Positions 35-25,361 of a DNA stretch of 30,775 bases are shown here, piece by piece. A program made the position numbers and the translations under genes. The stretch is from a virus. The notes below the pieces were generated by a model, which saw only the letters and a program-made list of their open reading frames with translations, searched no databases and was not told the DNA's origin. Location of the stretch: positions 1 through 30,775 of IMG/VR virus record IMGVR_UViG_3300023435_000072, one strand, 5' to 3'. Position 1 is the stretch's first letter, and every line of letters starts with the position of its first letter.

Positions 35-59
35 ACACCTCTATACCATATAAAGGTGT
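35..59. repeat. Inverted repeat related to the 16-bp tandem array
   Basis: ACACCTCTATA (35-45) is followed by CCA and then TATAAAGGTGT (49-59). The arms pair over 11 positions with one mismatch. The left arm contains CACCTCTATA, which is the first ten bases of the 16-bp unit repeated at 129-320. The array can therefore be read as many half-sites of this one palindrome, and a common DNA-binding protein is a reasonable inference. Confidence 0.7.
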
Positions 60-62
60 GAC

Positions 63-128
63 CATCATCCATCATCCGTCATCCATCATCCATCATCCAT
101 CATCCATCATCCATCATCCATCATCCGT
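63..128. repeat. Short tandem repeat, 7-bp unit CATCATC
   Basis: About nine copies of CATCATC run head to tail, with a CGTCATC variant in the third copy (77-83) and a partial CGT at the end. The tract abuts the 16-bp array at 129. It has no coding potential on either strand that looks real. Its copy number could be affected by assembly or replication slippage. Confidence 0.9.
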
Positions 129-320
129 CACCTCTATAAGCCGCCACCTCTATAAGCCGCCACCTCTATAAGCCGCCACCTCTATAAGCCGCCACCTCTA
201 TAAGCCGCCACCTCTATAAGACGCCACCTCTATAAGCCGCCACCTCTATAAGCCGCCACCTCTATAAGCCGCCACCTCTATAAGCCGCCACCTCTATAAG
301 CCACCACCTCTATACGTCAC
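129..320. repeat. Tandem array of twelve 16-bp units (CACCTCTATAAGCCGC)
   Basis: Twelve directly repeated 16-bp units without spacers. Unit 6 (209-224) has one change, unit 11 (289-304) one change, and unit 12 (305-320) is degenerate (CACCTCTATACGTCAC). Absence of spacers rules out a CRISPR array. Iterated sites just upstream of a terS-like gene are what would be expected of a packaging site bound by the small terminase; an iteron-type origin or a ParB-type partition site are alternatives. The function is inferred from position only. Confidence 0.9.
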
Positions 321-342
321 AGCTACCAGAGGCCGAGACAAT

Positions 343-396
343 GGACGCGAGATCTAGTTACTAGACGCGCCGTCCACCCCTCCGTTTATCTGGAGG
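343..396. other. Hairpin-rich non-coding segment beside the repeat array
   Basis: GGACG (343-347) can pair with CGTCC (371-375), and the tip TCTAG-TTA-CTAGA (353-365) is a perfect 5-bp hairpin. A second stem CCTCC/GGAGG spans 379-396. No convincing gene lies between 1 and 591, so with the upstream repeats this is a roughly 590-bp cis-acting region. A packaging (cos/pac), partition or replication role is possible and cannot be chosen from sequence alone. Confidence 0.45.
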
Positions 397-538
397 CATC
401 CCGCCCCTTGAGCCAGTGCGGGGTACTCGTCTCGATTTTAGTTCGCCAAAAACCGTGCCAGAACTTCGCCCAAAGCACAAATATCCTGGGTATATCCTCC
501 AGGAATCCAAGCGCCTTTTATGTCGAATTCTTTTCACC

Positions 539-3002: not shown

Positions 3003-3117
3003 TTGCCATGTATAAGAATGATAACGAAATGAATTCAATAATAAATAAAGCTCGCAGAGCCTTGGGTGTACGGTTATCGTTCGTACATGGCAACCCTTGG
3101 TTCTGGGGGCTTTTTTT
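3003..3117 (+). promoter_or_regulatory. Structured 5' leader with alternative hairpins and T-tract (attenuator-like)
   Basis: Two competing folds are visible. Fold A pairs 3003-3026 with 3071-3093 (near-perfect, TTGCCATGTA against TACATGGCAA, then the GATAAC/GTTATC segments). Fold B pairs AGAGCC-TT-GGG (3056-3066) with CCC-TT-GGTTCT (3094-3104) around an inner TGTACG/CGTACA hairpin (3067-3087). GGGGGC and seven Ts (3111-3117) follow at once. The leader starts at the predicted transcription start and ends before the ribosome site of the gene at 3142, so premature termination control is plausible. Confidence 0.55.
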
Positions 3118-3141
3118 GTTATTGCATTAGGAGGGTATTTG

Positions 3142-4584
3142 ATGGATGTATCGAAGCTTATTCCAGACGAGAGTAACAGCGAGTTTTTTCCGGACGTTGT
3201 TGGTCCTGAATTTGAAGAGTTCAAACAGTCCATTTATGAGAGTGGCGGCGTTATTGCACCGATTGTCATAGACCAGGACAACATTATTATAGCGGGGCAT
3301 CAACGGCGGAGGGCTTGTATTGCGCTGGGGATAAAGGATGTTCCGGTAGTTGTTAAGGTCGTGAAGGACGCCTTAGAGCGCGAGAAGTACAGGATTGAGG
3401 ATAATATCCGAAAGCGTACCAACTCGACTTCAGCGTTGGCCGGGGCGATTAAGCGGCTTTATGAGATTAAGGGGATTAAGCCAGGGCCGACAGATGAAAA
3501 CTCTTTCACCGTGAAAGAGTTAGCCAAAGAAACCGGAAAGTCAGAAGCCACAATATCACGCCTACGCACAATAGCCGACCTGATACCGGAATTATCCAAA
3601 ATGCTGGATGCGAAAGGTATCACTCAGAAGGTGGCCTATCAACTGGCGCAAATGGATGATGAAGGCCAGGCGCTTGTATTCAAACATCTTGAGTCGCAAT
3701 CAGAAGGCGCCACGATACAGGAAGCGGCTGCCAAGGATTTTAAAGATAAGTACAAGACTCAGCAGGCGTTGACGATATCTTTGAAAGATAACATCGAGAT
3801 GCTGAAAGATAAATTGCCGACGACCGAGGTGTTGGCGAAAATAGCGGAATTAAAGAGTCAACTGAAGGCAGAGAAAGCGAAGCCTGCTGAGAAGGTCGAG
3901 GTAATCCCGGAAGATTACGAGGCGGTTAAAAGTGATTTAGAGAAGACGAAGGAAACCCTGAAGGTGCAGACCAATTTATCTAGGCGACTGTCGAAGAGGT
4001 CTAAACAGTTGACATCCGACTATGAAGCGCTGATGAAGAAGTTCGTAATGCCGGAAGAAATACCGCAAGATAAATATAACGTAATTGTTATTGACCCCCC
4101 GTGGCCTGTAAAGAAGATACAGAGAGATGAACGGCCAAACCAGGATGTTCTTGATTACCCCACTATGACGGTTGAGGAAATAATGGACTTCCCGGTGGAC
4201 CAATTTTCCGCCGATGATAGTTTTTTGTTTATGTGGACGACTCAAAAGTACCTTCCGCATGGGTTGCGAATTCTGAAAGCATGGGGTTTTAATTACTTGT
4301 TGACGATGGTGTGGCACAAGCCCGGTGGTTTTCAGCCTTTCGGATTGCCGCAATACAACTGCGAGTTCGTTTTGCTGGGGAAGCGTGGCACTGCCGAGTT
4401 CACGGACACGAAAGCCCTTCCATGCTGTTTTGAAGCTCCGAGAGGCGAACACTCTGAAAAGCCCGAGGCTTTCTATGATCTATTAAACAGGGTAACGAGT
4501 GGTGACAAGATAGACGTATTTGCGCGTAAGAACCGAGAGGGGTGGAAACCCTTTGGCAATGAAAAGGATAAATTCAATGGCTAA
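3142..4584 (+). CDS. ParB-like domain fused to MT-A70 N6-adenine methyltransferase
   Basis: A 480-aa fusion. The N-terminal ParB/sulfiredoxin-type domain has AGHQRRRA at residues 51-58. A helix-turn-helix follows (about 122-145, KELAKETGKSEATISRL), then a long charged coiled coil (about 215-310). The C-terminal MT-A70 methyltransferase has the catalytic DPPW at 318-321 and a late segment ending FARKNREGW. It probably transfers a methyl group from SAM to adenine N6 in DNA, perhaps with site choice by the ParB/HTH half. The start is the ATG at 3142 after AGGAGGG; a TTG at 3097 would lie inside the leader T-tract. The last 8 bp overlap the next gene. Protection from host restriction, or marking of the packaging or partition site, are possible roles. 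Confidence 0.9.
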   Translation: MDVSKLIPDESNSEFFPDVVGPEFEEFKQSIYESGGVIAPIVIDQDNIIIAGHQRRRACIALGIKDVPVVVKVVKDALEREKYRIEDNIRKRTNSTSALAGAIKRLYEIKGIKPGPTDENSFTVKELAKETGKSEATISRLRTIADLIPELSKMLDAKGITQKVAYQLAQMDDEGQALVFKHLESQSEGATIQEAAAKDFKDKYKTQQALTISLKDNIEMLKDKLPTTEVLAKIAELKSQLKAEKAKPAEKVEVIPEDYEAVKSDLEKTKETLKVQTNLSRRLSKRSKQLTSDYEALMKKFVMPEEIPQDKYNVIVIDPPWPVKKIQRDERPNQDVLDYPTMTVEEIMDFPVDQFSADDSFLFMWTTQKYLPHGLRILKAWGFNYLLTMVWHKPGGFQPFGLPQYNCEFVLLGKRGTAEFTDTKALPCCFEAPRGEHSEKPEAFYDLLNRVTSGDKIDVFARKNREGWKPFGNEKDKFNG

Positions 4585-5197
4585 GAACTGGGAAACGGAC
4601 AAGGGGTGGTCTGACAAGTTTTTGCCTGAAATAAAGCAGATACTTGGATTGTACCTGATTGGGGAGCCGCCGGTCGAGGAGGACAGGTATCGTAATACTG
4701 ACCTGATGGTTTTGAAAATGGACGCAGTCAGGATTGGATGCAGGGTAAGGCGTTCCGTTACCGAGCGAGGGTATCAAACGCTTAAAAGGCACAACGATGA
4801 ATTCACGATAAGGGCCGGTCGTCCTTCGGGGGCAAAAACGGAGCTTGCAAAGGTTGTTGAGGGTTGGGGAGATTATTTCTTTTATGGCTTTGCAAGTGCT
4901 GATACGCTGTGTCATTGGACGTTATGCAATCTTAACGAATTCAGGGGGTGGTTTACCCGTTATATCGCAACTCACAAAGGCGAAGTCCCCGGTATTGGCA
5001 AGGTTAATAAAGATGGTTCATCTGACTTCAAAGCATTCAAGTTTTCTGCTTTGCCCCGGCCGTTTATTGTGGCAAAAGAGTGGGGTGATATGTACGAGGA
5101 CATAGTCCCGCCCCGAGACGATACCTGGATGAAACCCAAAGCGCCAAAGTTTGAGCAAATGAGCATGTTTCAGGCGCCCGGGGACTCTTATGTCTGA
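4577..5197 (+). CDS. Phage protein, possible PD-(D/E)XK-type nuclease
   Basis: A 206-aa protein. The ATG at 4577 is preferred because AAGGA sits 8 nt upstream and the gene overlaps the methyltransferase stop by 8 bp. Residues 34-59 (EEDRYRNTDLMVLKMD then RIGCRVRR) resemble the acidic/lysine core of small restriction-like nucleases. A conserved-looking GWGDYFFYGF lies near residue 96. The nuclease idea rests on that pattern only. Coupled genes on both sides (methyltransferase, then TerL with an 8-bp overlap) suggest a DNA-processing role during packaging, for example resolving or protecting ends. Confidence 0.7.
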   Translation: MAKNWETDKGWSDKFLPEIKQILGLYLIGEPPVEEDRYRNTDLMVLKMDAVRIGCRVRRSVTERGYQTLKRHNDEFTIRAGRPSGAKTELAKVVEGWGDYFFYGFASADTLCHWTLCNLNEFRGWFTRYIATHKGEVPGIGKVNKDGSSDFKAFKFSALPRPFIVAKEWGDMYEDIVPPRDDTWMKPKAPKFEQMSMFQAPGDSYV

Positions 5198-7061
5198 CAA
5201 AGACTACAGAAACGGTGGAGAGGGGTTCATCAGGTGGTGCAACGAGTGCGTGAGGGTAAGCATTTACCCGATTGGTTTGAGCGTGCCGGTTTGGACGCTT
5301 ATGGGAGAACTGCCGGACACGCTGCATCCTGACACGGGCCGGTCCTATTTGGATATGTGGGAAGGGCAGCAGGAGGTTTTGCGGGACGCACTGCGGATGG
5401 AGAACAATCGGTTCGTGTACAAGCTGATTGTTTTGTGCTGGCAGCGTGGGGACGGCAAGAGCCTGCTGGTGTGCCTGATCATATTGTGGAAGTTTTTCAA
5501 CTGGCCGAGGCAGCAGATTATGCTGGGGGCGAACTCGGTTAGCCAGATTCGTTTTGTGCATTACGACATCATCAGGGACATTATTTTAAATAGCCCGAAG
5601 CTCCTGGCCCAGATTGGAAGGAAGAATATCCGGGAAAAAGAGATCAGAATTAAGGATAGAACCCAAAAGACCCAGAGCATGATCAGGGCCATATCGAGCT
5701 TCAGCGGTATTGTGAGTAACATTACGGCGTATTCTTTTTCTGAAATGTTTGACATGAAGAACCCGAAGTTCTTTGTGCAGATTGATGGCTCGACAAGAAA
5801 CGTCCCGAACGCGCTGGGGCTGATCGATTCGACGGTATCCGAGAAGAGCCACGTGCTGTACCGGCTGTACGAGACGTTTAAGAAGGATAAGGACCCGAAG
5901 CTGTTCTTTTCTTATCGGAGTAGCGCGAAGGGGTCGTATAAGGACTTTTTTAATCCGAACATGACCCAGCAGCAGCTTGATTCTTATAAGGAGAAGTTTC
6001 CGTTTGGGGAGTTTGAGCGGTACTTCAAGAATTTATGGAGCGCCGGCAGCGAGCGGGTTTTTACGGATGAGATGATTGAGGCGACCAACTATGTGGGGAT
6101 TGATAAGCAGGTGAACGTCCACAAGGCGCTTATGGACATCCTGACGAACAAGAACCGGATGATTCAGCAGGAGCGGAAGATTATCAGCAGGCAGAGCGAT
6201 GATGAGATTCTTGAGGTCAAGAATCCCGAGATTATGCAGCAGCTGGAAGATCAGCACGGGCATTTGTTTGCTGACATGGACAAGAGGCTGTGGCCGATAA
6301 GCGACATCTACGAACTGAGGGACAAGGTGAGTGGAAGAGGCGCGATGGCCACCCAGGACGATCTGAAGAAACTTAGCAACATTTACGACACGAACTGGGC
6401 GATTTTAACGGGGATGGATAGGGCTGACCCGATGAAAACCAAAACGTCTGCGAGAACCATTGTGGTGGCGATTGCGAAAGGGCTGATGGGAAGTAGGACG
6501 AATCCGTACCCTGTGGACGAGTCTGAGGCGCCCCGGTATATTTACGTGTTGCTGCATTTGGCCGACATTGAGGATCATTCGGTTGAGGTGATTCAGGACA
6601 CGCTGATTGCCATTAAGGAGGAGTTTGACGGTATTGACGCCTTCGGGACGGAACGATGGGGCGCGGTGGACTTGGTGAACTGGTGCAATGAGAACAATAT
6701 CCTGGCCGACATTTATTACCCGACCTATTCGAGACAGAGGACAATGTTTACGGAATTGTTCCTGGCGTACAAGCATGGGCGGTTTAAGGCGGCGCCTGTG
6801 TGGGTAAGGGGGAATAAAGAGGACGACATTCTGAAGGAAGAGATTGGGGTGTTTGACCACAATCCGGCGGCGACCCAAGGGAAGTTCGGTAGCCCGGAGA
6901 AGAGTGAGAAGTACGGACGGCAGGATGATTGCGTGTTTGCGGTGGGCAGCGCTGTGTACGGTGGTCTGAGCTTGGGAGTTGAGAGCTTCAGGGAGCGTAA
7001 GGGTTTAAAGAGCTTTGGTTTCTTCTTCACGGACCGGAGCAACTTGATTGGGGATTATTAA
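5190..7061 (+). CDS. terL: Terminase large subunit
   Basis: A 623-aa packaging motor. The ATPase half has a Walker A-like WQRGDGKS at residues 84-91, after a beta-strand ending IVLCW. A Walker B-like strand with Ser-Glu (AYSFSEMF) lies near residue 187. The nuclease half has an Asp on a strand (LTGMDRAD, D410), a second acidic site near FGTERWGAVD, and a terminal GRQDDC pair (D579-D580), as expected for the RNase H-fold terminase nuclease. Length is slightly above the usual 450-600 aa, with a charged insert around residues 310-400 between ATPase and nuclease. It overlaps the preceding gene by 8 bp. It pumps DNA through the portal encoded at 9918. Confidence 0.93.
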   Translation: MSDKDYRNGGEGFIRWCNECVRVSIYPIGLSVPVWTLMGELPDTLHPDTGRSYLDMWEGQQEVLRDALRMENNRFVYKLIVLCWQRGDGKSLLVCLIILWKFFNWPRQQIMLGANSVSQIRFVHYDIIRDIILNSPKLLAQIGRKNIREKEIRIKDRTQKTQSMIRAISSFSGIVSNITAYSFSEMFDMKNPKFFVQIDGSTRNVPNALGLIDSTVSEKSHVLYRLYETFKKDKDPKLFFSYRSSAKGSYKDFFNPNMTQQQLDSYKEKFPFGEFERYFKNLWSAGSERVFTDEMIEATNYVGIDKQVNVHKALMDILTNKNRMIQQERKIISRQSDDEILEVKNPEIMQQLEDQHGHLFADMDKRLWPISDIYELRDKVSGRGAMATQDDLKKLSNIYDTNWAILTGMDRADPMKTKTSARTIVVAIAKGLMGSRTNPYPVDESEAPRYIYVLLHLADIEDHSVEVIQDTLIAIKEEFDGIDAFGTERWGAVDLVNWCNENNILADIYYPTYSRQRTMFTELFLAYKHGRFKAAPVWVRGNKEDDILKEEIGVFDHNPAATQGKFGSPEKSEKYGRQDDCVFAVGSAVYGGLSLGVESFRERKGLKSFGFFFTDRSNLIGDY

Positions 7062-7800: not shown

Positions 7801-7918
7801 GTTCTTTTGTGTGTGCCTGACCGCGATGGCGATGCCGCTTGTTTTGATGGGCTTCGGAGTTTGGAAAGTGACCGAGTTAATTCGTGAGATTGGGAGGAAA
7901 TCCTTTTGGGTGGATTAA
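7751..7918 (+). CDS. Small single-pass membrane protein, 55 aa
   Basis: A 55-aa reading frame with a good ribosome site (GGGAG, 6 nt before the ATG) inside the end of the upstream gene. Residues about 14-40 (VAEFFCVCLTAMAMPLVLMGF) form one transmembrane helix, with a basic cytoplasmic-type C-terminus. It overlaps the RNA ligase start at 7906. Size and topology would fit a holin-like or membrane-regulator protein, but no lysis gene is nearby, so no function is assigned. Confidence 0.55.
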   Translation: MKELSGTNVEKPTAVAEFFCVCLTAMAMPLVLMGFGVWKVTELIREIGRKSFWVD

Positions 7919-7925
7919 AGGTTGA
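7904..7925 (+). repeat. Direct repeat, left copy, flanking the RNA ligase gene
   Basis: A 22-bp sequence starting TTTTGGGTGG recurs at 8958-8979 with one change (21 of 22 identical). The copy carries the TTG start of the ligase gene and encodes its first residues (MGGLKVD). Confidence 0.85.
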
Positions 7926-8967
7926 TAATGCTCGGCATGTTTCATTTTCTAAAATTCCTCAATTCCGAGATGTAATTCGTAATGTAGTTCATCAAGCACA
8001 GTTTGAAGGGATAGATCAAGATAATGAACCTATATTTAACCCCAATGTAAAGAAGCCAACCATCACTTTTCATGGAACTGTGAAATTACATGGGTCGAAT
8101 GGCGGTTTTTGTGTTTCAAATAATGGAAAAACATGGACACAATCAAGGAAAAGGATCTTATCTATTGAAGCCGATAATAATGGTTTTTGGCAATTTTGCA
8201 ATGATAGAAAGGATAGTTTTCGAGATATGATAGCCCTCGTTTCCCATTTCTATTTTAATGAAGGAAATCCAGGAATAATTAGCATTTTTGGAGAATACTG
8301 TGGTGAAGGGATTAATCGAGGTTGCGCTATCCATCAACTACCAAAAATGTTTATTGTCTTCGCTGTTAAAATTGTACCAGCAGAAGGTGATTCATATTAT
8401 ATAGATTCTACTTATTTGAGAGATCCGGAAAATTTAATTTACAACATCAACGACTTTAAAACTTTTGAAGTAGCGGTAGATTTTGCTTACCCAGAGTTAG
8501 CGCAAAATGAATTTGTTGAGTTAGTTAACCAAGTTGAAAATGAATGTCCAGTTGGAAAAAAATTTAATGTTTCCGGCGTTGGCGAAGGAATCGTATGGAC
8601 AGCCGAATACGCTGGGACCAGGCACATATTCAAAACTAAGGGAGAAAAACATTCAGTATCGAAGGTCAAGAAAATAGCAGATGTTGACGTGGATAAAATT
8701 AATAATGTTAGAGAATTTGTTGAGTACGCTGTCACTGAAAACAGGTTGAATCAAGCAATAATTGAAATTTTTGAAGGGGAAGAACCGACGATCCAAAAAA
8801 TGGGTGATTTTCTAAGGTGGATTGTTAATGATATCGCAGCAGAAGAGGCAGACACATTAGGAAAAAATAATCTTATTTTGAAAGATGTAGGAAGGTCGAT
8901 TTCCAACAAAGCCAGACCATGGTTTCAAGAATTACTCAATAAAAATGTGGGGATGAATTTTGGGTGA
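7906..8967 (+). CDS. Rnl2-type RNA ligase
   Basis: A 353-aa ATP-dependent RNA ligase of the T4 Rnl2 (RnlB) type. Motif I KLHGSN is at residues 60-65, with K60 as the adenylated lysine. Motif III-like FGEYCGEG is at 128-135, motif IV GEGIVW at 226-231, and motif V FKTKGEK at 242-248. A C-terminal helical domain follows. It seals nicked or broken RNA, often to repair tRNAs cut by host anticodon nucleases, which fits the phage-encoded tRNA here. Start is the TTG at 7906 after GGGAGG. The gene is visibly AT-richer than its neighbours and is bounded by 22-bp direct repeats. Both ends overlap flanking genes, which suggests recent acquisition. Confidence 0.93.
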   Translation: MGGLKVDNARHVSFSKIPQFRDVIRNVVHQAQFEGIDQDNEPIFNPNVKKPTITFHGTVKLHGSNGGFCVSNNGKTWTQSRKRILSIEADNNGFWQFCNDRKDSFRDMIALVSHFYFNEGNPGIISIFGEYCGEGINRGCAIHQLPKMFIVFAVKIVPAEGDSYYIDSTYLRDPENLIYNINDFKTFEVAVDFAYPELAQNEFVELVNQVENECPVGKKFNVSGVGEGIVWTAEYAGTRHIFKTKGEKHSVSKVKKIADVDVDKINNVREFVEYAVTENRLNQAIIEIFEGEEPTIQKMGDFLRWIVNDIAAEEADTLGKNNLILKDVGRSISNKARPWFQELLNKNVGMNFG

Positions 8968-8979
8968 ATTAAAGGTTGA
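8958..8979 (+). repeat. Direct repeat, right copy
   Basis: Matches 7904-7925 at 21 of 22 bases. It overlaps the last bases of the ligase gene and carries the TTG start of the following gene, whose first residues (MGELKVD) mirror the ligase start (MGGLKVD). Confidence 0.85.
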
Positions 8980-9346
8980 CCCACTAAAGCACGATGCCGG
9001 TAAGATTCAGGCGGGGGTGCTTCTGGACTTCAGGCGGGCGCTCATGGAAGTGGCGAAGGTAGGGACATTCGGTACTGAGAAGTATTCCAGGAATAGCTGG
9101 CGGAACGTCGAGAACGCTGAAGAAAGGTACATGGACGCTCTGTGGCGGCATCTTCTGGCATCGGATGATTTGGATGAGGAGAGCGGCTTGCCTCACTTGG
9201 CGCACTTGGCCTGGAATATCCTGGCGCTTCTGGAGTTTAAGGAGTGCGGTAGGAGTTCAAGCGTTGAAGTGGCTTATCGAGGTTGTAGAAGCGATGTCCC
9301 AACCCAGGATGAGATTTCAGAAAATTGGCGGGAGTCCGGGCCATGA
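8960..9346 (+). CDS. DUF5664-like dATP/dGTP diphosphohydrolase (MazG superfamily)
   Basis: A 128-aa all-helical NTP pyrophosphohydrolase. KHDAGK (near residue 10), VGTFGTEKYSRNSWR (about 35-48), ERYMDALWRHLLA (about 54-66) and DEESGLPHLAHLAWN (about 72-86) match the DUF5664/MazZ pattern, with Glu/Asp residues binding metal. It would hydrolyse dATP or dGTP to the monophosphate plus PPi. MazZ removes competing dATP/dGTP precursors in phages with 2-aminoadenine DNA. No PurZ is in the window, so a simple pool-shaping role is equally likely. Start is the TTG at 8960 in the right direct repeat; the ATGA overlap at 9343-9346 couples it to the next gene. Confidence 0.82.
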   Translation: MGELKVDPLKHDAGKIQAGVLLDFRRALMEVAKVGTFGTEKYSRNSWRNVENAEERYMDALWRHLLASDDLDEESGLPHLAHLAWNILALLEFKECGRSSSVEVAYRGCRSDVPTQDEISENWRESGP

Positions 9347-17064: not shown

Positions 17065-19071
17065 ATGAAAAAACGAGTTCTCTTCGTGGGTGAAAACCCT
17101 CTCGGAACAACTGGAAATGCCAACATGCTGGCCGCGATTTTGTCGGACCTTGACCACGACAAATATCAGGCTGCCTGCTTTGTTGTGAACGAAACCAACC
17201 CCTCTGCGGTTCTGTTTGACCCGCTGCCCTACACTCTTGTGAACGGTACGACCTCCAATGATTACTGGGGAACTAATCGCCTTATCTCCCTTATTCAAGA
17301 AACGCAATTCGATTACCTGTGCATGGTCGGCATAGACTTCTGGCGATACCTATCGGCTTGGAACGCCATCCGGTCTTTACGGGACGCGAAGAAGTTCAAG
17401 TGGATTGCGATATTCCCTTACGATACCTGGGACCTCCAGAAAAGCTGGGTAGGACCTCTGAATGATCTTGACTTCCCGTGCGTTTATTCCCAGTACGGCT
17501 ACGATCAGCTGAAACCTCACGTGCCTAAAATCCAGTATTATCGGCCTAGATTAAACGGTTGGGAAACATTTGTCCCGTCCGATAAATTCACTGCAAGGAT
17601 GGAAGTATTCCCGAACATCCCGATAGGTAAAACGATATTCGGGTTTGTCGGAAAGAACCAGATTCGGAAATCCCCCGAGCGTCTTGTGAAGGCGTTTCTT
17701 GAAGCGAAGAAAACCAACCCTGAGATGGTCCTTTATCTCCATACTGACATGAACGGATACCATAACCTGAAGCAGATTGCTCAAGCCAACGGCGCTGTCA
17801 ATGGAGACCTGGTGGCCAAGCAACCAGACGTTTCTTACGACCGATCGAAAATGCCGGGTATTTACAATGCCATTGACTGCCTGGTGAATTGCAGTATGCA
17901 AGAGGGTTTATCATGGACACCTCTTGAGGCCATGCTTTGCGGAACGCCTGTGGTTGCATCTGATACCACGGCTCAGTCGGAACTGGTAAAAGATGCCGGG
18001 TTCATGGTTTTGTGCAAGGACCTTTCGTATATACCGATGGGTGGCATGGAAGGCCGGAACGATTCTGTGGAATCCAAGGCTTGCCGAGTGGAAGATATCC
18101 GAGACGCTATTTTGTCGGTTGCTGATTCGGATCGAAAAGACATGATTCAGAACGGGCTGGACGTTTCTAAAAACTGGGTGGCTGATGTGAGCAACATCAA
18201 CGACCTCCTGAACGAAGCTGGCAAGAAACGAAAATCTGAGAAGAAGATTGAAGCGGTGCTGTTCGCCCAGCATTCTTCTGCCGGGGATGTCCTCATGACG
18301 ACCCAGTGCTTTAAGGGAATCAAGGAACGGCATCCGGATATGCCCTTGGTTTATATGACCCAGAAGGTCTTTGCAGGGGTGGTCTTTGGGAACCCGTATC
18401 TTGACGAAATTATCGAGTGGGATGAACGGCACCTGAAGCGATATGAGGTCGTCTACAACCCCCATGGTGAACATATCATCAACGGCGGGTTTAACAATTT
18501 AGATGTGACTTTACACAGCATGTATCCGTATTTCACGAAGGTTGAATCGGACGATATCTTTATTGCCCCCGTTTGCCCCCAATGGTGGGAAACCCACTGG
18601 GGTTCTTACACCGATTACATCGTGGTGCATACAACGGGTGGAAGCAAAGAGTATCGATCTTACCCGCATATGGATCAAGTCATTAAAAGCCTGGGTGATA
18701 AGAAATTTATTCAGTTGGGAGGCCCGAGTGATTTGCGATGTGAGGGTGCGGTCGATCTTCGTGGAAAGACCACTTGGCAAGAATCAGCTTGGATCATGCA
18801 GCACGCAAAAGCGGCTGTTGTCGTGGACAGCTTCTTGTCTCACCTGGCCGGTGCTGTTGGAACGGATGCCGTGGTCGTTTATGGTCCGGCGCCGCCGAGG
18901 GTGGTCCAACCCAAAGTCCAAGGATGTAAAATCATTAACCTGAAGCCGGACATGCTGAAGGTGTGCAAAAGCATGACCCATTGCTGGGGGCGTAACGAGC
19001 AGTGTAATTCCCCGTGCATCAATACCATTTCACCGCTTATCGTTAAAAAGGCTTTGGAGAAATTAATATGA
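17065..19071 (+). CDS. Two-domain glycosyltransferase: GT4 plus GT9 (heptosyltransferase-like)
   Basis: A 668-aa fusion. The N-terminal GT-B domain (about 3-385) ends with an EGLSWTPLEAM block carrying the retaining-GT4 E-x7-E (E280, E288), followed by GTPVVASDTTAQSEL. From about 395 a GT9/heptosyltransferase-like domain begins (SAGDVLMTTQCF, D408), with the NPYLDEIIEWD, RGKTTWQESAWI and HLAGAVGTDAVVVYGP segments typical of ADP-heptose transferases. It could add two successive sugars. It opens a run of sugar genes inserted between neck and tail genes. The overlap of 19068-19071 couples it to the GT2 gene. Confidence 0.88.
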   Translation: MKKRVLFVGENPLGTTGNANMLAAILSDLDHDKYQAACFVVNETNPSAVLFDPLPYTLVNGTTSNDYWGTNRLISLIQETQFDYLCMVGIDFWRYLSAWNAIRSLRDAKKFKWIAIFPYDTWDLQKSWVGPLNDLDFPCVYSQYGYDQLKPHVPKIQYYRPRLNGWETFVPSDKFTARMEVFPNIPIGKTIFGFVGKNQIRKSPERLVKAFLEAKKTNPEMVLYLHTDMNGYHNLKQIAQANGAVNGDLVAKQPDVSYDRSKMPGIYNAIDCLVNCSMQEGLSWTPLEAMLCGTPVVASDTTAQSELVKDAGFMVLCKDLSYIPMGGMEGRNDSVESKACRVEDIRDAILSVADSDRKDMIQNGLDVSKNWVADVSNINDLLNEAGKKRKSEKKIEAVLFAQHSSAGDVLMTTQCFKGIKERHPDMPLVYMTQKVFAGVVFGNPYLDEIIEWDERHLKRYEVVYNPHGEHIINGGFNNLDVTLHSMYPYFTKVESDDIFIAPVCPQWWETHWGSYTDYIVVHTTGGSKEYRSYPHMDQVIKSLGDKKFIQLGGPSDLRCEGAVDLRGKTTWQESAWIMQHAKAAVVVDSFLSHLAGAVGTDAVVVYGPAPPRVVQPKVQGCKIINLKPDMLKVCKSMTHCWGRNEQCNSPCINTISPLIVKKALEKLI

Positions 19072-19781
19072 TCATCCTAATGCAATCGTTAAACGAAGAG
19101 AAGATGGTGGACCCGGTGATTAGCGACTTCCACGATCTTGACTGGGTGTCCAGGGTGATTGTTATCGACGGCGGCAGCCAGGACTTCACCGTTCATAAGC
19201 TGAACCAATGGCCGAAATGCGAAGTGTACCAGCATTTTTATGACCGTGGGTATCATGCGGCTCAGAGTATGCAGCGGAACATTTCTTTGACATACATTCC
19301 AACGGGTGAAGTTTGCTTCATCCTGGATTTTGATGAAAAGATGTCCGATGAGCTTAAAGACTTCCTTGAAAGCGTAGATAAGGATGGCATGCCCATGGAC
19401 GCCGACGTAGTTTGCGTGTCTCGGATATCGCATGAATCCATGCGCCATGACGATTCCCCCTTTGCGCTTCTGGATGAGCAAGGGTTCCCGGTGCCGTCAC
19501 ACACTATAGGGGAGTACCCCGATTGGCAGGCACGTTTAATCCGGAGAGACCCGAAGATGTTTTTCATCAATTCTCCACATCACGTCTTGATCGGTCCGGA
19601 AAAACAAATTACCCGGGAGCGGACGGACATCATTCACTACCACGGTAAGGCAGACGCTAGGGACCGAGAAAATATTGAAATCCTTTGGGCCACCACGCAG
19701 GCAAGGCGCAAGACGCTCGGCTTAGAGCCGGATGTTTTTGAGGCCAGGCTGGCACCTGAATTCGCGATGTACGGGGCTTGA
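19068..19781 (+). CDS. Glycosyltransferase family 2-like
   Basis: A 237-aa GT-A protein. The N-terminal QSLNEEKMVDP and VIVIDGGSQDFT (about 34-45) form the nucleotide-sugar site of family 2. FILDFDEKMSDEL (near residue 83-95) supplies the acidic metal-binding site, and a conserved RLIRRD follows with PHHVLIGP. It probably transfers a hexose. It is coupled by overlap to the fused transferase and followed after 1 bp by the aminotransferase gene. Confidence 0.8.
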   Translation: MIILMQSLNEEKMVDPVISDFHDLDWVSRVIVIDGGSQDFTVHKLNQWPKCEVYQHFYDRGYHAAQSMQRNISLTYIPTGEVCFILDFDEKMSDELKDFLESVDKDGMPMDADVVCVSRISHESMRHDDSPFALLDEQGFPVPSHTIGEYPDWQARLIRRDPKMFFINSPHHVLIGPEKQITRERTDIIHYHGKADARDRENIEILWATTQARRKTLGLEPDVFEARLAPEFAMYGA

Positions 19782-19782
19782 G

Positions 19783-20934
19783 ATGATTAGTCTATTTAAG
19801 CCATATATGGGAAATGAGGAGCTGGAGAGCTTGAGGAGCATCTTTGAATCTGGATGGATTGGCTTGGGTCCAAAGACGGAACAATTCGAAAAGCAATTCT
19901 CTGAATACATTGGGTGCCGTTATACGGTTGGACTCAATTCTGCAACTGCGGCTTTGGACTTGTCGTTAAAGCTATTGGGAATTAATCACGGGGACGAGGT
20001 GATTGTCCCCACAATGACGTTTGTTTCGACCGCTCACGTAGTGAAATATAATCTAGCAGAACCCATATTCGCGGATGTGGACGATAATTTATTAATTGAC
20101 CTGGAGGATGTTGCTCGAAAGATTACCAAAAGAACAAAGGCGATCATCCCTGTCCACTATTCTGGACGGCCTGTAGACATGGATCGGCTGAAAGAAATCG
20201 CCGGGGATATACCTATCATAGAAGATTCCGCCCATGCCGCTGGAGCTGTCTATAAAGGGGCCAGATGCGGGAGTCTCGGGACAATGGGGGCTTTCAGCTT
20301 CCATGCTGTAAAGAATTTGGCCATGGGGGATGGAGGGGCCATCACCACGGACGATGAAGAGATGTACGAGAGGGCCAAAAAGCTCAGGTGGTTAGGGATT
20401 GATAAATCCACATGGAACAGGAGCGATCAAAACAAGAGTTATTGGTGGGAATATTCAGTGGGCGAGATAGGATTAAAATGTCACATGAACGATATCGCGG
20501 CCTCTATCGGCCTGGTTCAGCTATCGAAGCTTGAAATGATGAATGCTCGAAGAAAAGAAATAGCCGAAAGATATACCAAGGGGCTGTTGGATGTTGAAAC
20601 CCCAATGATGGATACGGACGATTCTAAGTCCTCCTGGCATATCTATTGTATCAGGTGTCAAAGAAGAAACGATTTGAGCGTTTACCTGAAGGACCGAGGG
20701 ATTATGACCGGAGTCCATTATAAACCGATTCATTTATATGAATGTTACGGGAATATCCCAACCATTCCAAATGCCGAGAAATACTTTGAGGAAATCCTAT
20801 CGTTGCCGATGCATCCGGGGTTGACAGATGCTGAGGTGGATACAGTGATCGGAGCTATTAATTCATTTAGCAGGAGAAATCATAATGGTAAAGGCACGAG
20901 CGAAGAAACGTACTACCAAGGTGGAAGGCACTAA
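19783..20934 (+). CDS. DegT/DnrJ/EryC1-type PLP sugar aminotransferase
   Basis: A 383-aa protein. The TVGLNSATAALDLSLKLLGI opening, HGDEVIVPTMTFVSTAHVV, EDSAHAAGAVYKG and SFHAVKNLAMGDGGAI (K177 is the predicted PLP lysine) are diagnostic of sugar aminotransferases that install an amino group on a nucleotide-linked keto sugar (PseC/WecE type). Start is the ATG at 19783, just after the previous stop; an upstream in-frame ATG (19732) lies inside the GT2 gene. The end overlaps the next gene by 50 bp. Together with the GNAT gene it can make an N-acylated amino sugar. Confidence 0.93.
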   Translation: MISLFKPYMGNEELESLRSIFESGWIGLGPKTEQFEKQFSEYIGCRYTVGLNSATAALDLSLKLLGINHGDEVIVPTMTFVSTAHVVKYNLAEPIFADVDDNLLIDLEDVARKITKRTKAIIPVHYSGRPVDMDRLKEIAGDIPIIEDSAHAAGAVYKGARCGSLGTMGAFSFHAVKNLAMGDGGAITTDDEEMYERAKKLRWLGIDKSTWNRSDQNKSYWWEYSVGEIGLKCHMNDIAASIGLVQLSKLEMMNARRKEIAERYTKGLLDVETPMMDTDDSKSSWHIYCIRCQRRNDLSVYLKDRGIMTGVHYKPIHLYECYGNIPTIPNAEKYFEEILSLPMHPGLTDAEVDTVIGAINSFSRRNHNGKGTSEETYYQGGRH

Positions 20935-21847
20935 GAAGCGCACGCCTAAGAAGGCAGTGGCCCCGAAGGTAAACCCAAAAATACATTACAGGAACTTACA
21001 CGGTACTACAAATACCCCATGGCAAAACGCATTCCGTAGATATGGAGAATTGTCATTAGGGGATATAAGCGCTGGTGGGTTCCCGGATAAGATTGATCAT
21101 CTTCACTTAGGAGGAAGCTGCAAAGGGGCTTCTTCTATCAGGGACAACCCTATAACCGTGGCTGAGGTTAAAGCTGTTCAGGCGAAAACAGACTGTTCGG
21201 TTAGTGTTTTTTTTGGAGACGCATACCCGGAGAGATTTCAATTTCATCATGATTTGTTGGACGCTGGCATTCCTAAACTAAAGATTTACTCGGCTGCCTT
21301 ATATGGAACTCCTATGTGGAGATCAGAAGTTAATTGGGTGCTGCACCCCACAGACGAAGACATCTTTAAATTAGTTGAACATAAAAAGAACGATACTGTC
21401 TTATTTGTTGGTGCATTAACGCCATATAGAAAAGGCGTGATTGCTGCCCTGGGGCAGGCCGGGATAAAAGTTGACGTTGTTGGGAGCGGTGGGAATATCC
21501 CTGTAAAGTTTGGTAAAGAGCTTGTGGAGCTGTCAAAGGATTATACCTTAAGCATCGGCATGTTCTACAACGAAAAGCTTCCGCGAACCAGGTATTCTTC
21601 TACGAGACTGCCGAACACTCTTGCGACGGGGCTTATCTACATAGAGTCAGATTTTGATTTGTCCGGCGTGTTTAAATCCGATGAGATTATCCAGTGGCGT
21701 GACATCGATGATTTGGTTGCTAAGATCAAATACTATCAAAAACATATCATGGAAGGTCATGAGATTATCATGAAGGGGCGGGAGAAGGTTCTTGAGAACT
21801 GGACGTTCAATAAACTGGCTGAGAAGTTCATAAATGATAACGCTTAG
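20885..21847 (+). CDS. Glycosyltransferase, CgeB/GT1-like, with basic N-terminal tail
   Basis: A 320-aa protein with ribosome site CAGGAGA. Residues 1-30 are Lys/Arg-rich. The GT-B-like body ends with RLPNTLATGLIYIESDFDL and a final helix, matching CgeB-like (spore-coat-type) transferases. It is related in style to the gene at 22714. The basic tail is unusual for the family and could anchor the enzyme to nucleic acid or the virion. It overlaps both neighbours. Confidence 0.72.
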   Translation: MVKARAKKRTTKVEGTKKRTPKKAVAPKVNPKIHYRNLHGTTNTPWQNAFRRYGELSLGDISAGGFPDKIDHLHLGGSCKGASSIRDNPITVAEVKAVQAKTDCSVSVFFGDAYPERFQFHHDLLDAGIPKLKIYSAALYGTPMWRSEVNWVLHPTDEDIFKLVEHKKNDTVLFVGALTPYRKGVIAALGQAGIKVDVVGSGGNIPVKFGKELVELSKDYTLSIGMFYNEKLPRTRYSSTRLPNTLATGLIYIESDFDLSGVFKSDEIIQWRDIDDLVAKIKYYQKHIMEGHEIIMKGREKVLENWTFNKLAEKFINDNA

Positions 21848-22289
21848 AGACATTGAAGAGTCTGATTTGGAAAGAGTACGCCTATGGCGGATGTCACCCG
21901 AAGTGACGAAATACCTCCTTACAGACCCGGTCATCACGGAAGAAAGCCAAAAGCAATGGTATCAAGGCATGAGCAAAAGAGGTGATATCTACTGGATTGT
22001 TAATTTTAAAGGCGTAGATATCGGATATGCCTCTTTGAACGGAATCGATACTCAAAGCCTAAGTGCTGACCCCGGGGTGTATATTGGTGAAGCGGAATAC
22101 CGAGGGATTGGCCTGGGTGGAATGATACTGAAGAAAGTTGAGGAGCATGCTTTCGAACGTCTAAGTTTGCATAAACTATACGGCTATATCATATCTGAAA
22201 ATAGCAAAGCGATGAAGATGTATCGCAGAAATGGTTGGGTGCGTGAGTCTGTTTCGGAAGGGGTAATGTGTTTTTCAAAGGGCGGATAG
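21834..22289 (+). CDS. GNAT N-acetyltransferase (RimJ/PseH-like)
   Basis: A 151-aa protein. The MITLRDIEESDLERVRLWR start, the acetyl-CoA-binding loop EYRGIGLGGMILKKVEEHAF (about 90-110) and the final SENSKAMKMYRRNGWV are classical GNAT features. Next to a sugar aminotransferase it most likely acetylates an amino sugar as PseH does. It overlaps the preceding gene by 14 bp and the next by 22 bp. Confidence 0.88.
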   Translation: MITLRDIEESDLERVRLWRMSPEVTKYLLTDPVITEESQKQWYQGMSKRGDIYWIVNFKGVDIGYASLNGIDTQSLSADPGVYIGEAEYRGIGLGGMILKKVEEHAFERLSLHKLYGYIISENSKAMKMYRRNGWVRESVSEGVMCFSKGG

Positions 22290-22717
22290 CCGACTTGAAT
22301 CTGACGGAACCTATCCTCGCAAAAGGGTATAAGTCCATGTCTTTTGATGAGCCGGAGGTGCCTAACGCATTGGTTAAACAATGGGAATCGTTAACCGGGG
22401 TCAAATGGAATGTCCCAGGGAATGCACATATATTCTTCATTACGAAAAGACGAAAAGTTGTTTCTACTGTTTTCTTTATAGTTGATGACAAAATCAGTAC
22501 AGGGATATTTCATACAGGGATATGCAACCCAAAGCACAGAAAAAAAGGTTTTTATAAATATTCAATCTTAAAAGGCATCCCGATGATGGAAGAGAGAGGG
22601 ATACGGTTTTTGGAAGAGCACACAACTAAATCCTTCTTATGGCCATTTTGGGATTCTCTGGGGCTGAAGAGGGTTAGGAAAATCTCTTATTTAGCACACG
22701 CCGGTAGAGCATCATGA
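22268..22717 (+). CDS. GNAT-like small protein, putative second acyltransferase
   Basis: A 149-aa protein. GICNPKHRKKGFYKYSILKG (about 84-103) resembles the acetyl-CoA loop of GNAT enzymes, and the end FWDSLGLKRVRKISY resembles their final strand. Start is GTG at 22268; an ATG at 22334 (residue 23) with AAAAGGG upstream is an alternative. The full motif set is not clear, so it may be a degenerate relative. It overlaps the neighbours at both ends and is AT-richer than the head genes. Confidence 0.6.
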   Translation: MFFKGRIADLNLTEPILAKGYKSMSFDEPEVPNALVKQWESLTGVKWNVPGNAHIFFITKRRKVVSTVFFIVDDKISTGIFHTGICNPKHRKKGFYKYSILKGIPMMEERGIRFLEEHTTKSFLWPFWDSLGLKRVRKISYLAHAGRAS

Positions 22718-23568
22718 AAATACGGATAATATCGTTGTCGGACTGCATGAACAATATAAAAGATGGCGATTATTGGGTGAAACGAGACTTAGAAGCAGCG
22801 TTCATTATCCAGGGGTACGAAGTCGTAAAAGAAAATGCTGACTTGGATTTTTATCTATTTGGGTTGTATTCCTCGGGGCATCGTATGTCGGCGCCCCGAA
22901 GGTTTTGTTGGGTGTATTCCCACCCGGACTTAGTGGAGAGCAGCGAGTGGCCTGAATTCGCAAAACAGTTTGAACACATATTTGTTCTTTCAAATAGCTT
23001 TATGGCAGGCAGAGATAAAACCTCAGTCTTGCTGGGTGCATCGTCAAAAGGGTTCGGTCCTCGGAGAGAGATTAAGTATGACATAATCTTTGTAGGGGCG
23101 ATGAGGCATGGGAAAAGAATTGACGCGGTGAGGCGCCTTATAGAAGCTGGCAAATATAGGATTTGCCTCGTAGGTGTTGGATGGGATAAGGCTTTGGGCG
23201 ATCTGATAAATAAGGTCGATTATAAAGGTGATTACATCGACAACCGTTCTTTAGGTAGTCTTTTCAGCCAAGGGCGATTGTCCTTTTACTCAGCGCATGA
23301 GGACATGAGGTTAGCCGGGTTTGTAGCTGTTAGGATTTTGGACATTTTTAGGAGTAGCGAGTGCCTCTGCATATCAGACGAAAACGTAGGGCTTAAAGAC
23401 ATATCCAAGGCTATTCCAACATATAAAGACCTGGACGAATTAACAGCACAGGTAGACTATTTTTTGCGCTATCCTGATAAAAGAAATGAAATTGCGGCAC
23501 AATGCAGAATCGATGTTAAAGATTTCACTTTTCGTAAAACGGTAAAAGAAATAACGAGATGGATATAA
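22714..23568 (+). CDS. CgeB-like glycosyltransferase
   Basis: A 284-aa GT-B protein. The body contains YDIIFVGAMRHGKRIDAV (about 127-143), a nucleotide-binding start of the second Rossmann domain, then RLAGFVAVRILDIFRSSECL and a terminal DFTFRKTVKEIT. These match CgeB/GT1-like transferases. Start ATG at 22714 overlaps the previous stop by 4 bp. It is the second such transferase in the cassette, suggesting a chain of several sugars. Confidence 0.75.
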   Translation: MKIRIISLSDCMNNIKDGDYWVKRDLEAAFIIQGYEVVKENADLDFYLFGLYSSGHRMSAPRRFCWVYSHPDLVESSEWPEFAKQFEHIFVLSNSFMAGRDKTSVLLGASSKGFGPRREIKYDIIFVGAMRHGKRIDAVRRLIEAGKYRICLVGVGWDKALGDLINKVDYKGDYIDNRSLGSLFSQGRLSFYSAHEDMRLAGFVAVRILDIFRSSECLCISDENVGLKDISKAIPTYKDLDELTAQVDYFLRYPDKRNEIAAQCRIDVKDFTFRKTVKEITRWI

Positions 23569-24119
23569 TGCCCTATATCTTAGAGTTCGATGATTTTTGT
23601 GAAAATGGCATACTAGGGCTTAATTGCGATAGGCGAGATTTATTGTTTAAATTGAAAGAAAAGATACCGCAACTGAAAGTAAACCTTTTCACTATCGTTG
23701 GAAGGTGTTCCCCTGTTTGGCTTGAAGAAATAAAGGAAATCCCGTGGGTCGATATGATCCCGCATGGCTGGAGTCATGATGGGCCTGAATGTCAGAATTG
23801 GACCAAGCTTGAAGCACTGGATTGCCTTGATAGGGTTGAACGGTTAGGGCTTACCAAAGGATTTAAAGCCCCCGGATGGCGTATATCTGGAGGCACCTAT
23901 GAGGGGTTGATGGAAAAAGGGTATTGGGTAGCAGATGTGCCAAAGAATGACAATAAAAGACCTGCTGGCCTCCGTACATATTTAGCAAGTGATAATCCAG
24001 AAGAACGAATCCAAGGTCATATGACGGAATGCCTGGGAGACAGGGGCCTTGAGCATAGATTCGATTTCTATGCTTCTTTAAATGATAAAGAATATATGTT
24101 TATCAAGGAGATAATGTGA
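23568..24119 (+). CDS. Polysaccharide deacetylase-like (NodB fold)
   Basis: A 183-aa protein. LEFDDF near the N-terminus (D8-D9), HGWSH at 66-70 (H-x3-H) and KAPGWR, with GHMTE near the end, reproduce the metal-binding layout of NodB deacetylases. It would remove N-acetyl groups from a glycan. Start ATG at 23568 overlaps the stop of the preceding gene (TAATG); a start at 23559 is also possible. It ends in a GTGA overlap with the GT8 gene. Confidence 0.78.
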   Translation: MPYILEFDDFCENGILGLNCDRRDLLFKLKEKIPQLKVNLFTIVGRCSPVWLEEIKEIPWVDMIPHGWSHDGPECQNWTKLEALDCLDRVERLGLTKGFKAPGWRISGGTYEGLMEKGYWVADVPKNDNKRPAGLRTYLASDNPEERIQGHMTECLGDRGLEHRFDFYASLNDKEYMFIKEIM

Positions 24120-24811
24120 AAACCTGTTTTGCCATGGTTGTCACCAAGAACCAGCGTCACGCATGTAATTACTTTACTATGGCGCAAGTTGCTCTGCGGA
24201 GCTTGCAGATGAATAGCGGCCTCGATATCCCGTGTTATATATTTTGCACTGATATGGATGACCATCTATCAATAGACGGCAGCCTTGATGAGCTTCACGC
24301 ATTGTACGAAAACCTGATAATCCATAAGGTAGATACAGCGAAATACAAACAGCACAACAAAGAATGGCCCGGTTATTGGAGCCATGAAATGTTCAATATC
24401 AAAGGGTATGACAGGGTAATATTCAGCGATGCCGACGTTATCTGCCTGGGGAGCTTGGCTGATTTGCCGGCTACTGACCTCGGCATGGTATGGGAAAGTC
24501 CGAGAAAACAGTTCTTTGGTGGGTTCATATGTGTCGGGAAGAAGTATCTTAATACGGGAACATATGAAGCCGTATTGAAGCATCAAAAACAGCCTGGGAC
24601 ATGGGGGCGGGACCAGGCCGTTTATAACGAATACTTTAACAAAAGCGACATAACCGAGCTTCACGGGAAATACACGACAGTAACGAACAAGAAATGTGAT
24701 GACATCCGGATGCTGCATTACATTTTTAAACCGGGCCTTACGTCAAGATTATCTCAAGAATATCGGGACCTATGGGATGCTCACGCGTTGGCTGTAAATC
24801 AAGGAGTGTAA
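24116..24811 (+). CDS. Glycosyltransferase family 8-like
   Basis: A 231-aa GT-A enzyme. The Asp-x-Asp motif DAD is at 105-107 (FSDADVICLGSL), with the preceding YDRVI and following WESPRKQFFGGF segments typical of GT8 (galactosyl- or glucosyltransferase, retaining). The GTG start at 24116 overlaps the previous stop. It is one of at least five transferases in this cassette and is followed 1 bp later by a methyltransferase gene. Confidence 0.85.
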   Translation: MKTCFAMVVTKNQRHACNYFTMAQVALRSLQMNSGLDIPCYIFCTDMDDHLSIDGSLDELHALYENLIIHKVDTAKYKQHNKEWPGYWSHEMFNIKGYDRVIFSDADVICLGSLADLPATDLGMVWESPRKQFFGGFICVGKKYLNTGTYEAVLKHQKQPGTWGRDQAVYNEYFNKSDITELHGKYTTVTNKKCDDIRMLHYIFKPGLTSRLSQEYRDLWDAHALAVNQGV

Positions 24812-24812
24812 G

Positions 24813-25361
24813 ATGGGAATGACGGGATTGCAGACGGTACTCGATAACATTAGACCGAGTTTCGAATATAACATTTCGTTTGTGGAGAAACACTTAATCG
24901 GGAAAGGGCTTGATATGGGCTGTGGTAATTGTCCATTGTTGAAAGACGATTGCCTTCATGTTGATCAAGCACCTCAGCCAATAGCGGTTGAGCAGGTAGG
25001 TGAAGATGTCATCAAAGGTGATGCTGTCACGTTTGCCCCCGATGGCCTTGTGGATTACATATTCTCTTCTCATATGTTGGAGGACCTGCCCACGGAAGGA
25101 GCGATAATAGATTGTCTGCTGGGATGGGCCAAGCTGCTGAAAAAAGGTGGCGTGATTGTGCTGCTTTTGCCTGACATGCTTGGGGGACGCTATCCTACTG
25201 TCGAAGACGGTGGCAATCCCTCTCATCGTGTGAATGTCGGAGTTCCATTTATTGAGCGGATTACCCCAAGGTTGAAGGGGCTAGAACTTATTCAGGTGAA
25301 TACCATCCCTCTCAATAAAAGCTGCACCCTGGATGTAGTGTTCAGAAAAGGAACCAAATGA
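24813..25361 (+). CDS. SAM-dependent methyltransferase (class I)
   Basis: A 182-aa protein. GLDMGCGNC (residues 32-40) is motif I, and YIFSSHMLEDL (about 84-94) with LLKKGGVIVLLLPD supply motifs II-III. No catalytic signature for a specific acceptor is seen. In this cassette it probably O-methylates a sugar. It starts 1 bp after the GT8 gene and overlaps the next gene by 4 bp. Confidence 0.87.
   Translation: MGMTGLQTVLDNIRPSFEYNISFVEKHLIGKGLDMGCGNCPLLKDDCLHVDQAPQPIAVEQVGEDVIKGDAVTFAPDGLVDYIFSSHMLEDLPTEGAIIDCLLGWAKLLKKGGVIVLLLPDMLGGRYPTVEDGGNPSHRVNVGVPFIERITPRLKGLELIQVNTIPLNKSCTLDVVFRKGTK

Follow-up and report, generated by a model that had tools for sequence, protein, structure and literature searches.

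A conserved, oriented DNA element flanked by hypervariable repeats and linked to the small-terminase gene in uncultured tailed phages: a candidate packaging-initiation site

Organisation of the locus

The window analysed here is a whole IMG/VR virus record of 30,775 bases, classed as linear. Repeats, a conserved element and a small-terminase-like gene (terS) follow one another at its left end, with the large-terminase gene (terL) further along the same strand:

3-31, no strand assigned: imperfect short direct repeat CCTTGGCGTGGA / CCTTGGCGTTGA with 17-bp spacing, at the contig end
36-58, no strand assigned: palindrome CACCTCTATA-CCA-TATAAAGGTG; left arm equal to the first 10 bases of the 16-bp unit
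62-130, + strand: 7-bp tandem array CCATCAT, 9.9 copies
129-320, + strand: 16-bp tandem array CACCTCTATAAGCCGC, 12 units (11 in contig L003); hypervariable flank
342-375, no strand assigned: inverted repeat GGACGCG...CGTCC, inner TCTAGTTACTAGA
373-453, + strand: conserved cis element, candidate packaging recognition/cleavage core; profile match in 48 loci
376-391, + strand: Box 2, ACCCCTCCGTTTATCT; family consensus CCCCCTCGATYTATCT; invariant CCCC at 377-380
420-441, + strand: Box 3, GGGGTACTCGTCTCGATTTTAG; family consensus GGGGTACYnACCACAATATTTT; dyad-like core, then A/T tract
592-1260, + strand: small-terminase-like protein (TerS) with an invariant Cys4 cluster, a helical core weakly matching P27/Terminase_4 and an AT-hook tail
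5190-7061, + strand: large terminase (TerL; phrog_9, phrog_2), used for collecting relatives

The palindrome and the 7-bp and 16-bp tandem repeats that an earlier note described beside terS are all present (36-58, 62-130 and 129-320). The 7-bp array has a 95% match between copies and is G-poor on the + strand. TRF places the 16-bp array at 125-314 with a score of 359, the maximum in the window; counted from the starts of CACCTCTATA, it covers 129-320 in 12 units. The earlier reading of the first ten bases of the 16-bp unit as a palindrome arm that is then repeated directly also holds, since the window contains 13 copies of CACCTCTATA against 0.06 expected, one forming the left arm of the palindrome and 12 being direct copies at 16-bp spacing. 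The two arms differ by one mismatch and about eight separate sites in the window have equally good palindromes, so the one at 36-58 is notable only because its left arm equals the array unit. No ORF of at least 60 aa overlaps positions 1-415, in agreement with the earlier description of the repeat region as free of genes. Hairpins had also been proposed; a hairpin-forming stretch does lie at 342-395 (DNA fold of 325-445, z -2.35), but the part of it that falls within the conserved element described below shows no conserved base pairing in relatives.

The window starts 35 bases 5' of the palindrome, within a short repeat (3-14 / 20-31), and as the contig begins inside this repeat the left edge of the locus is cut off. 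The array itself recurs in an independent assembly from another sample, L003 (IMG/VR contig 3300025736_000641), which is 99.9% identical to the window over 10.7 kb and carries 11 units instead of 12, with the variant unit at a different place. This confirms the array as real, with a copy number that varies, and the suspicion that it might be an assembly artefact at a contig end can be set aside. A further imperfect palindrome, ATCCATATATAGATATAAGGAT, lies at 549-570 directly before the terS ribosome-binding site.

The terminase genes and their surroundings

TerL has more than 100 uncultured relatives; neither TerS nor TerL matched anything in a collection of 50,697 cultured phage records, and the TerL profile found nothing in the PDB. 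The small terminases of the relatives have four invariant cysteines and a helical core in common. These cysteines lie near the N-terminus throughout the family, the window protein included, and may form a metal site; they gave no PDB match. The window TerS itself has no match to the Terminase_4 Pfam profile, and weak matches to this family were found for 3 of 30 TerS family members, the best with an E of 0.013. Its predicted fold recovered several top BFVD matches annotated as TerS, some of them P27, at E values of at least 1.4e-3, and nothing significant in the PDB, where no solved structure was matched by sequence or by fold. By position and predicted fold the protein is probably TerS-like, if distantly so, and stays below the Terminase_4/P27 cut-off. 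Its AT-hook, mentioned in the earlier note when it named this protein as a candidate binder, is not a conserved feature, being found in the window TerS and in one of the 29 other TerS proteins.

In the window, terS and terL are separated by a 3.9-kb insertion that includes a ParB-MT-A70 gene; close relatives, L012 among them, lack the insertion and have terS next to terL. The ParB-MT-A70 gene (3097-4584) encodes ParB_N and HTH_ParB domains fused to an MT-A70 methyltransferase, nearly the whole of which is spanned by phrog_21315, a family of unknown function. Two contigs from different samples, L018 and L019, are 99-100% identical to the window TerL, and both start at about TerL codon 245, which could be a strain break or a physical end. 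Elsewhere in the window, an RNA ligase gene (phrog_548; 7906-8967) is followed by a gene for a small protein (8960-9346) matching phage pyrophosphohydrolase and 'endolysin; inhibits RNA polymerase' families, and a cluster at 17065-25361, amid structural genes, resembles glycosyltransferase, aminotransferase, acetyltransferase and methyltransferase genes by sequence.

A conserved element directly 3' of the array

Among about 110 uncultured TerL relatives, a DNA element of ~75 nt was recognised that in the window lies at 373-453, directly 3' of the array, and consists of CCCCTCGATYTATCT, a variable spacer and GGGGTACYnACCACAATATTTT. Iterated nhmmer searches (E<0.05) matched it in 48 loci, with one element found per locus and all of them on the terS/terL strand; the element profile had no matches in reversed sequences. 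The window's own element is among the weaker profile matches. A profile lacking the window's clade still recovers window positions 376-429 (E 0.018), together with the elements of L012, L107 and L102. Information peaks over CCCC-T (about 1.5-1.8 bits per base), TATCT and the GGGGTAC-nnACCACAA-TATTTT box. The distance from element to terS is ~150 nt in the window and 120-520 nt in most relatives, with a minority at 0.8-7 kb.

A blind scan with a two-box DNA pattern returned one new contig, L169, in which a TerS of the window's family (E 1.8e-39) is encoded directly downstream, in an open frame that continues from the element; no TerL was detected in the examined part of this contig. Of two further element patterns run against viral_contigs, one found an already known contig and the other none. 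BLASTN of the element and the array against cultured phages gave no match.

The element does not behave as a structured RNA leader or RNA element: RNAalifold predicted no pairs across 41 element sequences, there was no covariation, and no Rfam family matched at its gathering score. A Box 2 hairpin that looked compensatory by eye had pair counts equal to those of shuffled sequences. The lack of an RNA pairing signal favours a site acting as DNA.

Rapid turnover of the flanking repeats

Tandem arrays occur within 800 bp before terS in 19 of 60 distinct lineages, compared with 36 of 729 control tiles (p 1e-9). Repeat-rich noncoding gaps (z>=5), for which a crude ORF-based definition was used, number 30 among the 68 gaps proximal to terS, against 15 among 219 others (p 1e-11). 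It is the element that the repeats accompany: flanks with z>=5 were found beside it in 20 of 33 cases upstream and 11 of 29 downstream, against 5 of 318 elsewhere. Seven lineages (L025, L026, L117, L123, L130, L155 and L162) have the element 1.6-7 kb away from terS, and there repeat content is raised at the element (z 3.9-28.7) but not before terS (z -1.0 to 2.7). In several of these distant-element lineages leftward genes separate terS from the element, an arrangement that counts against a late-gene promoter.

The repeat units are unrelated between lineages, being for instance of ACTACATT type in L048, CTTTCTACCCCTA in L028 and TTAACCATTACCAG in L044. In L102, TCTGTTTAC occurs 12 times across both strands, six on each, and L048 has palindromes made of array words. 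Slippage alone cannot give motifs on both strands, so that binding sites in multiple copies are suggested for these lineages at least. Replacement can be seen between near-identical phages: L028 and L067 are 99.2% identical and their elements are the same letter for letter where both cover it, yet the array is of CTTTCTACCCCTAT type in one and mostly CTAT in the other. This difference makes it unlikely that TerS reads the array base by base and weakens the array as a sequence-specific TerS site; given the same difference, the repeats may even be non-functional. As far as sequence comparison can establish it, the locus comprises a conserved, oriented DNA element that is flanked by fast-changing repeats and linked to terS.

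A probable site of packaging initiation

We consider it probable (roughly 0.6) that a group of uncultured tailed phages begins DNA packaging at this locus, a site of pac or cos type in which hypervariable repeats flank a conserved core. TerS would recognise the element on concatemeric DNA via Box 2 and/or the A/T tract after Box 3 and would recruit TerL for the initial cut, within the element or next to it, with the dyad-like Box 3 as candidate cut site. From the cut, packaging would enter terS and then the late genes. An accessory role would fall to the flanking arrays (palindrome, 7-mers and 16-mers), which would provide extra weak binding, bending or spacing; alternatively, they could be by-products of repeated breakage and slippage around the cut region. 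The earlier idea of a protein-binding locus gains support as far as a packaging-type locus by terS is concerned, but the evidence moves to the conserved 373-453, mostly 3' of the interval first noted, and the array, being hypervariable, is unlikely to be the sequence-specific determinant.

The ends of the assembled genomes bear on the type of packaging. Three records (G007, G008 and G009) are rotations of one 87.7-kb genome, two of them with end overlaps of 123-144 bp, and the ends of an 82.5-kb genome (G011) overlap by 99 bp. Contig starts cluster in the ~700 bp upstream of the element without sharing one position, and several long contigs pass unbroken through it; such a spread could arise if assemblies break in repeats or if the ends are imprecise, but does not suit a simple cos end. 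Headful (pac) packaging is preferred over cos on account of this scatter over hundreds of bases and of the circular genome maps of the two best-checked large relatives, with the qualification that circular maps are also compatible with terminally repeated genomes or with a cos phage sequenced as intracellular DNA.

The closest known architecture is that of the pac of the Bacillus phages SPP1 and SF6, which also has a region 5' of terS with variable repeats and a conserved box. The pac region of these phages spans the terS promoter and start and contains several sets of direct repeats; the boxA repeats differ between phages and boxB, over the cut, is 90% identical (PMC4737164). The likeness found is one of architecture, and cutting in the window's group is only inferred; unlike in SPP1/SF6, the repeats are far more numerous and completely replaced between lineages, and the locus is sometimes kilobases from terS. 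In P22, headful packaging is initiated at a short asymmetric site, the 13-nt GATTTATCTGAAG (PMC9611059). When this site was scored against the Box 2 profile, 11 of 5000 shuffles scored as high, a resemblance that was noticed post hoc; the P22 site, unlike the element described here, sits within the terS gene and has neither the CCCC block nor Box 3. The 20-mer of the PaP3 cos matched Box 2 no better than shuffles did (486/3000).

In T7, arrays of a short repeat (CCTAAAG) lie beside the terminal repeats. The 7-bp tandem array of the window would likewise adjoin a packaging or concatemer junction; a direct terminal repeat is, in this comparison, shown for T7 only.

Alternative explanations

One form that packaging could take is a cohesive-end cos as in HK97, with TerL cutting Box 3 at fixed positions and TerS binding just downstream over the A/T tract; this is possible but rather doubtful. 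In HK97, TerS binds positions 15-29 downstream of the cos cut and requires an A-tract (PMC11331095), an arrangement of cut site and A-tract that recalls the dyad-like Box 3 (GGGTACCC, CGAGACTCG) with its A/T tract within ~10 nt. The weak Terminase_4 match of TerS and an HNH endonuclease gene after terS in G001 point the same way. Such a site would, however, be expected to leave fixed ends, and in these metagenome assemblies the contig starts are spread over ~700 bp without a common position in the element, several long contigs run unbroken across it and two relatives have circular maps. The invariant Cys4 cluster of TerS is a further difference from HK97.

The main rival to a packaging site is a replication origin, which we regard as unlikely. 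On this view a lineage-specific initiator would bind the arrays as iterons, with the element and its A/T tract as the core for unwinding or loading. Repeats do lie beside a conserved core and A/T-rich DNA; at the divergence of leftward and rightward modules this arrangement could resemble an iteron origin, and sliding clamp, DNA-polymerase and ligase matches are found on the leftward side in G001. The GC-skew check proposed in the earlier note did place the cumulative minimum near the region in four large relatives, but the skew tracks gene direction. Its switch in G001, near 15 kb and about 2.7 kb from the element, coincides with a change in gene direction, and in L123 it is mostly negative over the leftward genes that separate the element from terS and becomes positive at terS; being confounded with gene direction, it speaks neither for nor against an origin. 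The orientation of the element and its linkage to terS are better explained by packaging, and replacement of iterons would be unexpected where the rest of the genome is ~99% unchanged, as in L028 and L067. Separately, G009 (IMGVR 3300017971_000243) has a very long repetitive ORF at 61.4-66.4 kb with a GC skew near -0.5, opposite to that of its neighbours.

An operator or promoter of the terS-late operon, in which the palindrome would be the full site and the array tandem half-sites for a transcription regulator, is improbable. The shared palindrome arm and array unit of the window suit it, as do the two-strand TCTGTTTAC copies of L102 and the palindromes built from array words in L048, but in several lineages terS has no repeats in front of it, the element and its repeats being 1.6-7 kb away and in some cases separated from it by leftward genes.

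A partition centromere bound by the ParB-MT-A70 protein has very little to commend it beyond the ParB_N and HTH_ParB domains encoded nearby: ParA (AAA_31) is absent from all 12 records examined, of which that of the window is partial, and present in 14 of 14 control genomes, which disfavours partition, ParB_N occurs in only 3 of the 12, and repeats are present in relatives without ParB. The fusion protein, named earlier as a candidate binder, is a poor one, since tblastn found it in no relative's terminase region except that of the near-identical L003.

Implications

The core of the proposed packaging site is kept across a group whose TerS proteins are only ~25% identical, while the repeats are replaced so fast that near-identical phages differ. 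Speculatively, it may be the physical properties or the number of the repeats that count, and not their sequence, and recurrent cutting and repair where packaging begins may create them anew, an idea that we hold as less likely than otherwise. A review calls the way in which TerS recognises pac unclear and controversial (PMC9611059). Packaging sites are usually mapped phage by phage and are hard to predict from sequence. If the locus is a packaging site, the profile predicts such sites in many uncultured phages, the conserved core can be separated from fast-evolving accessory repeats, and DNA recognition by a TerS family with a Cys4 cluster could be studied in dozens of natural variants.
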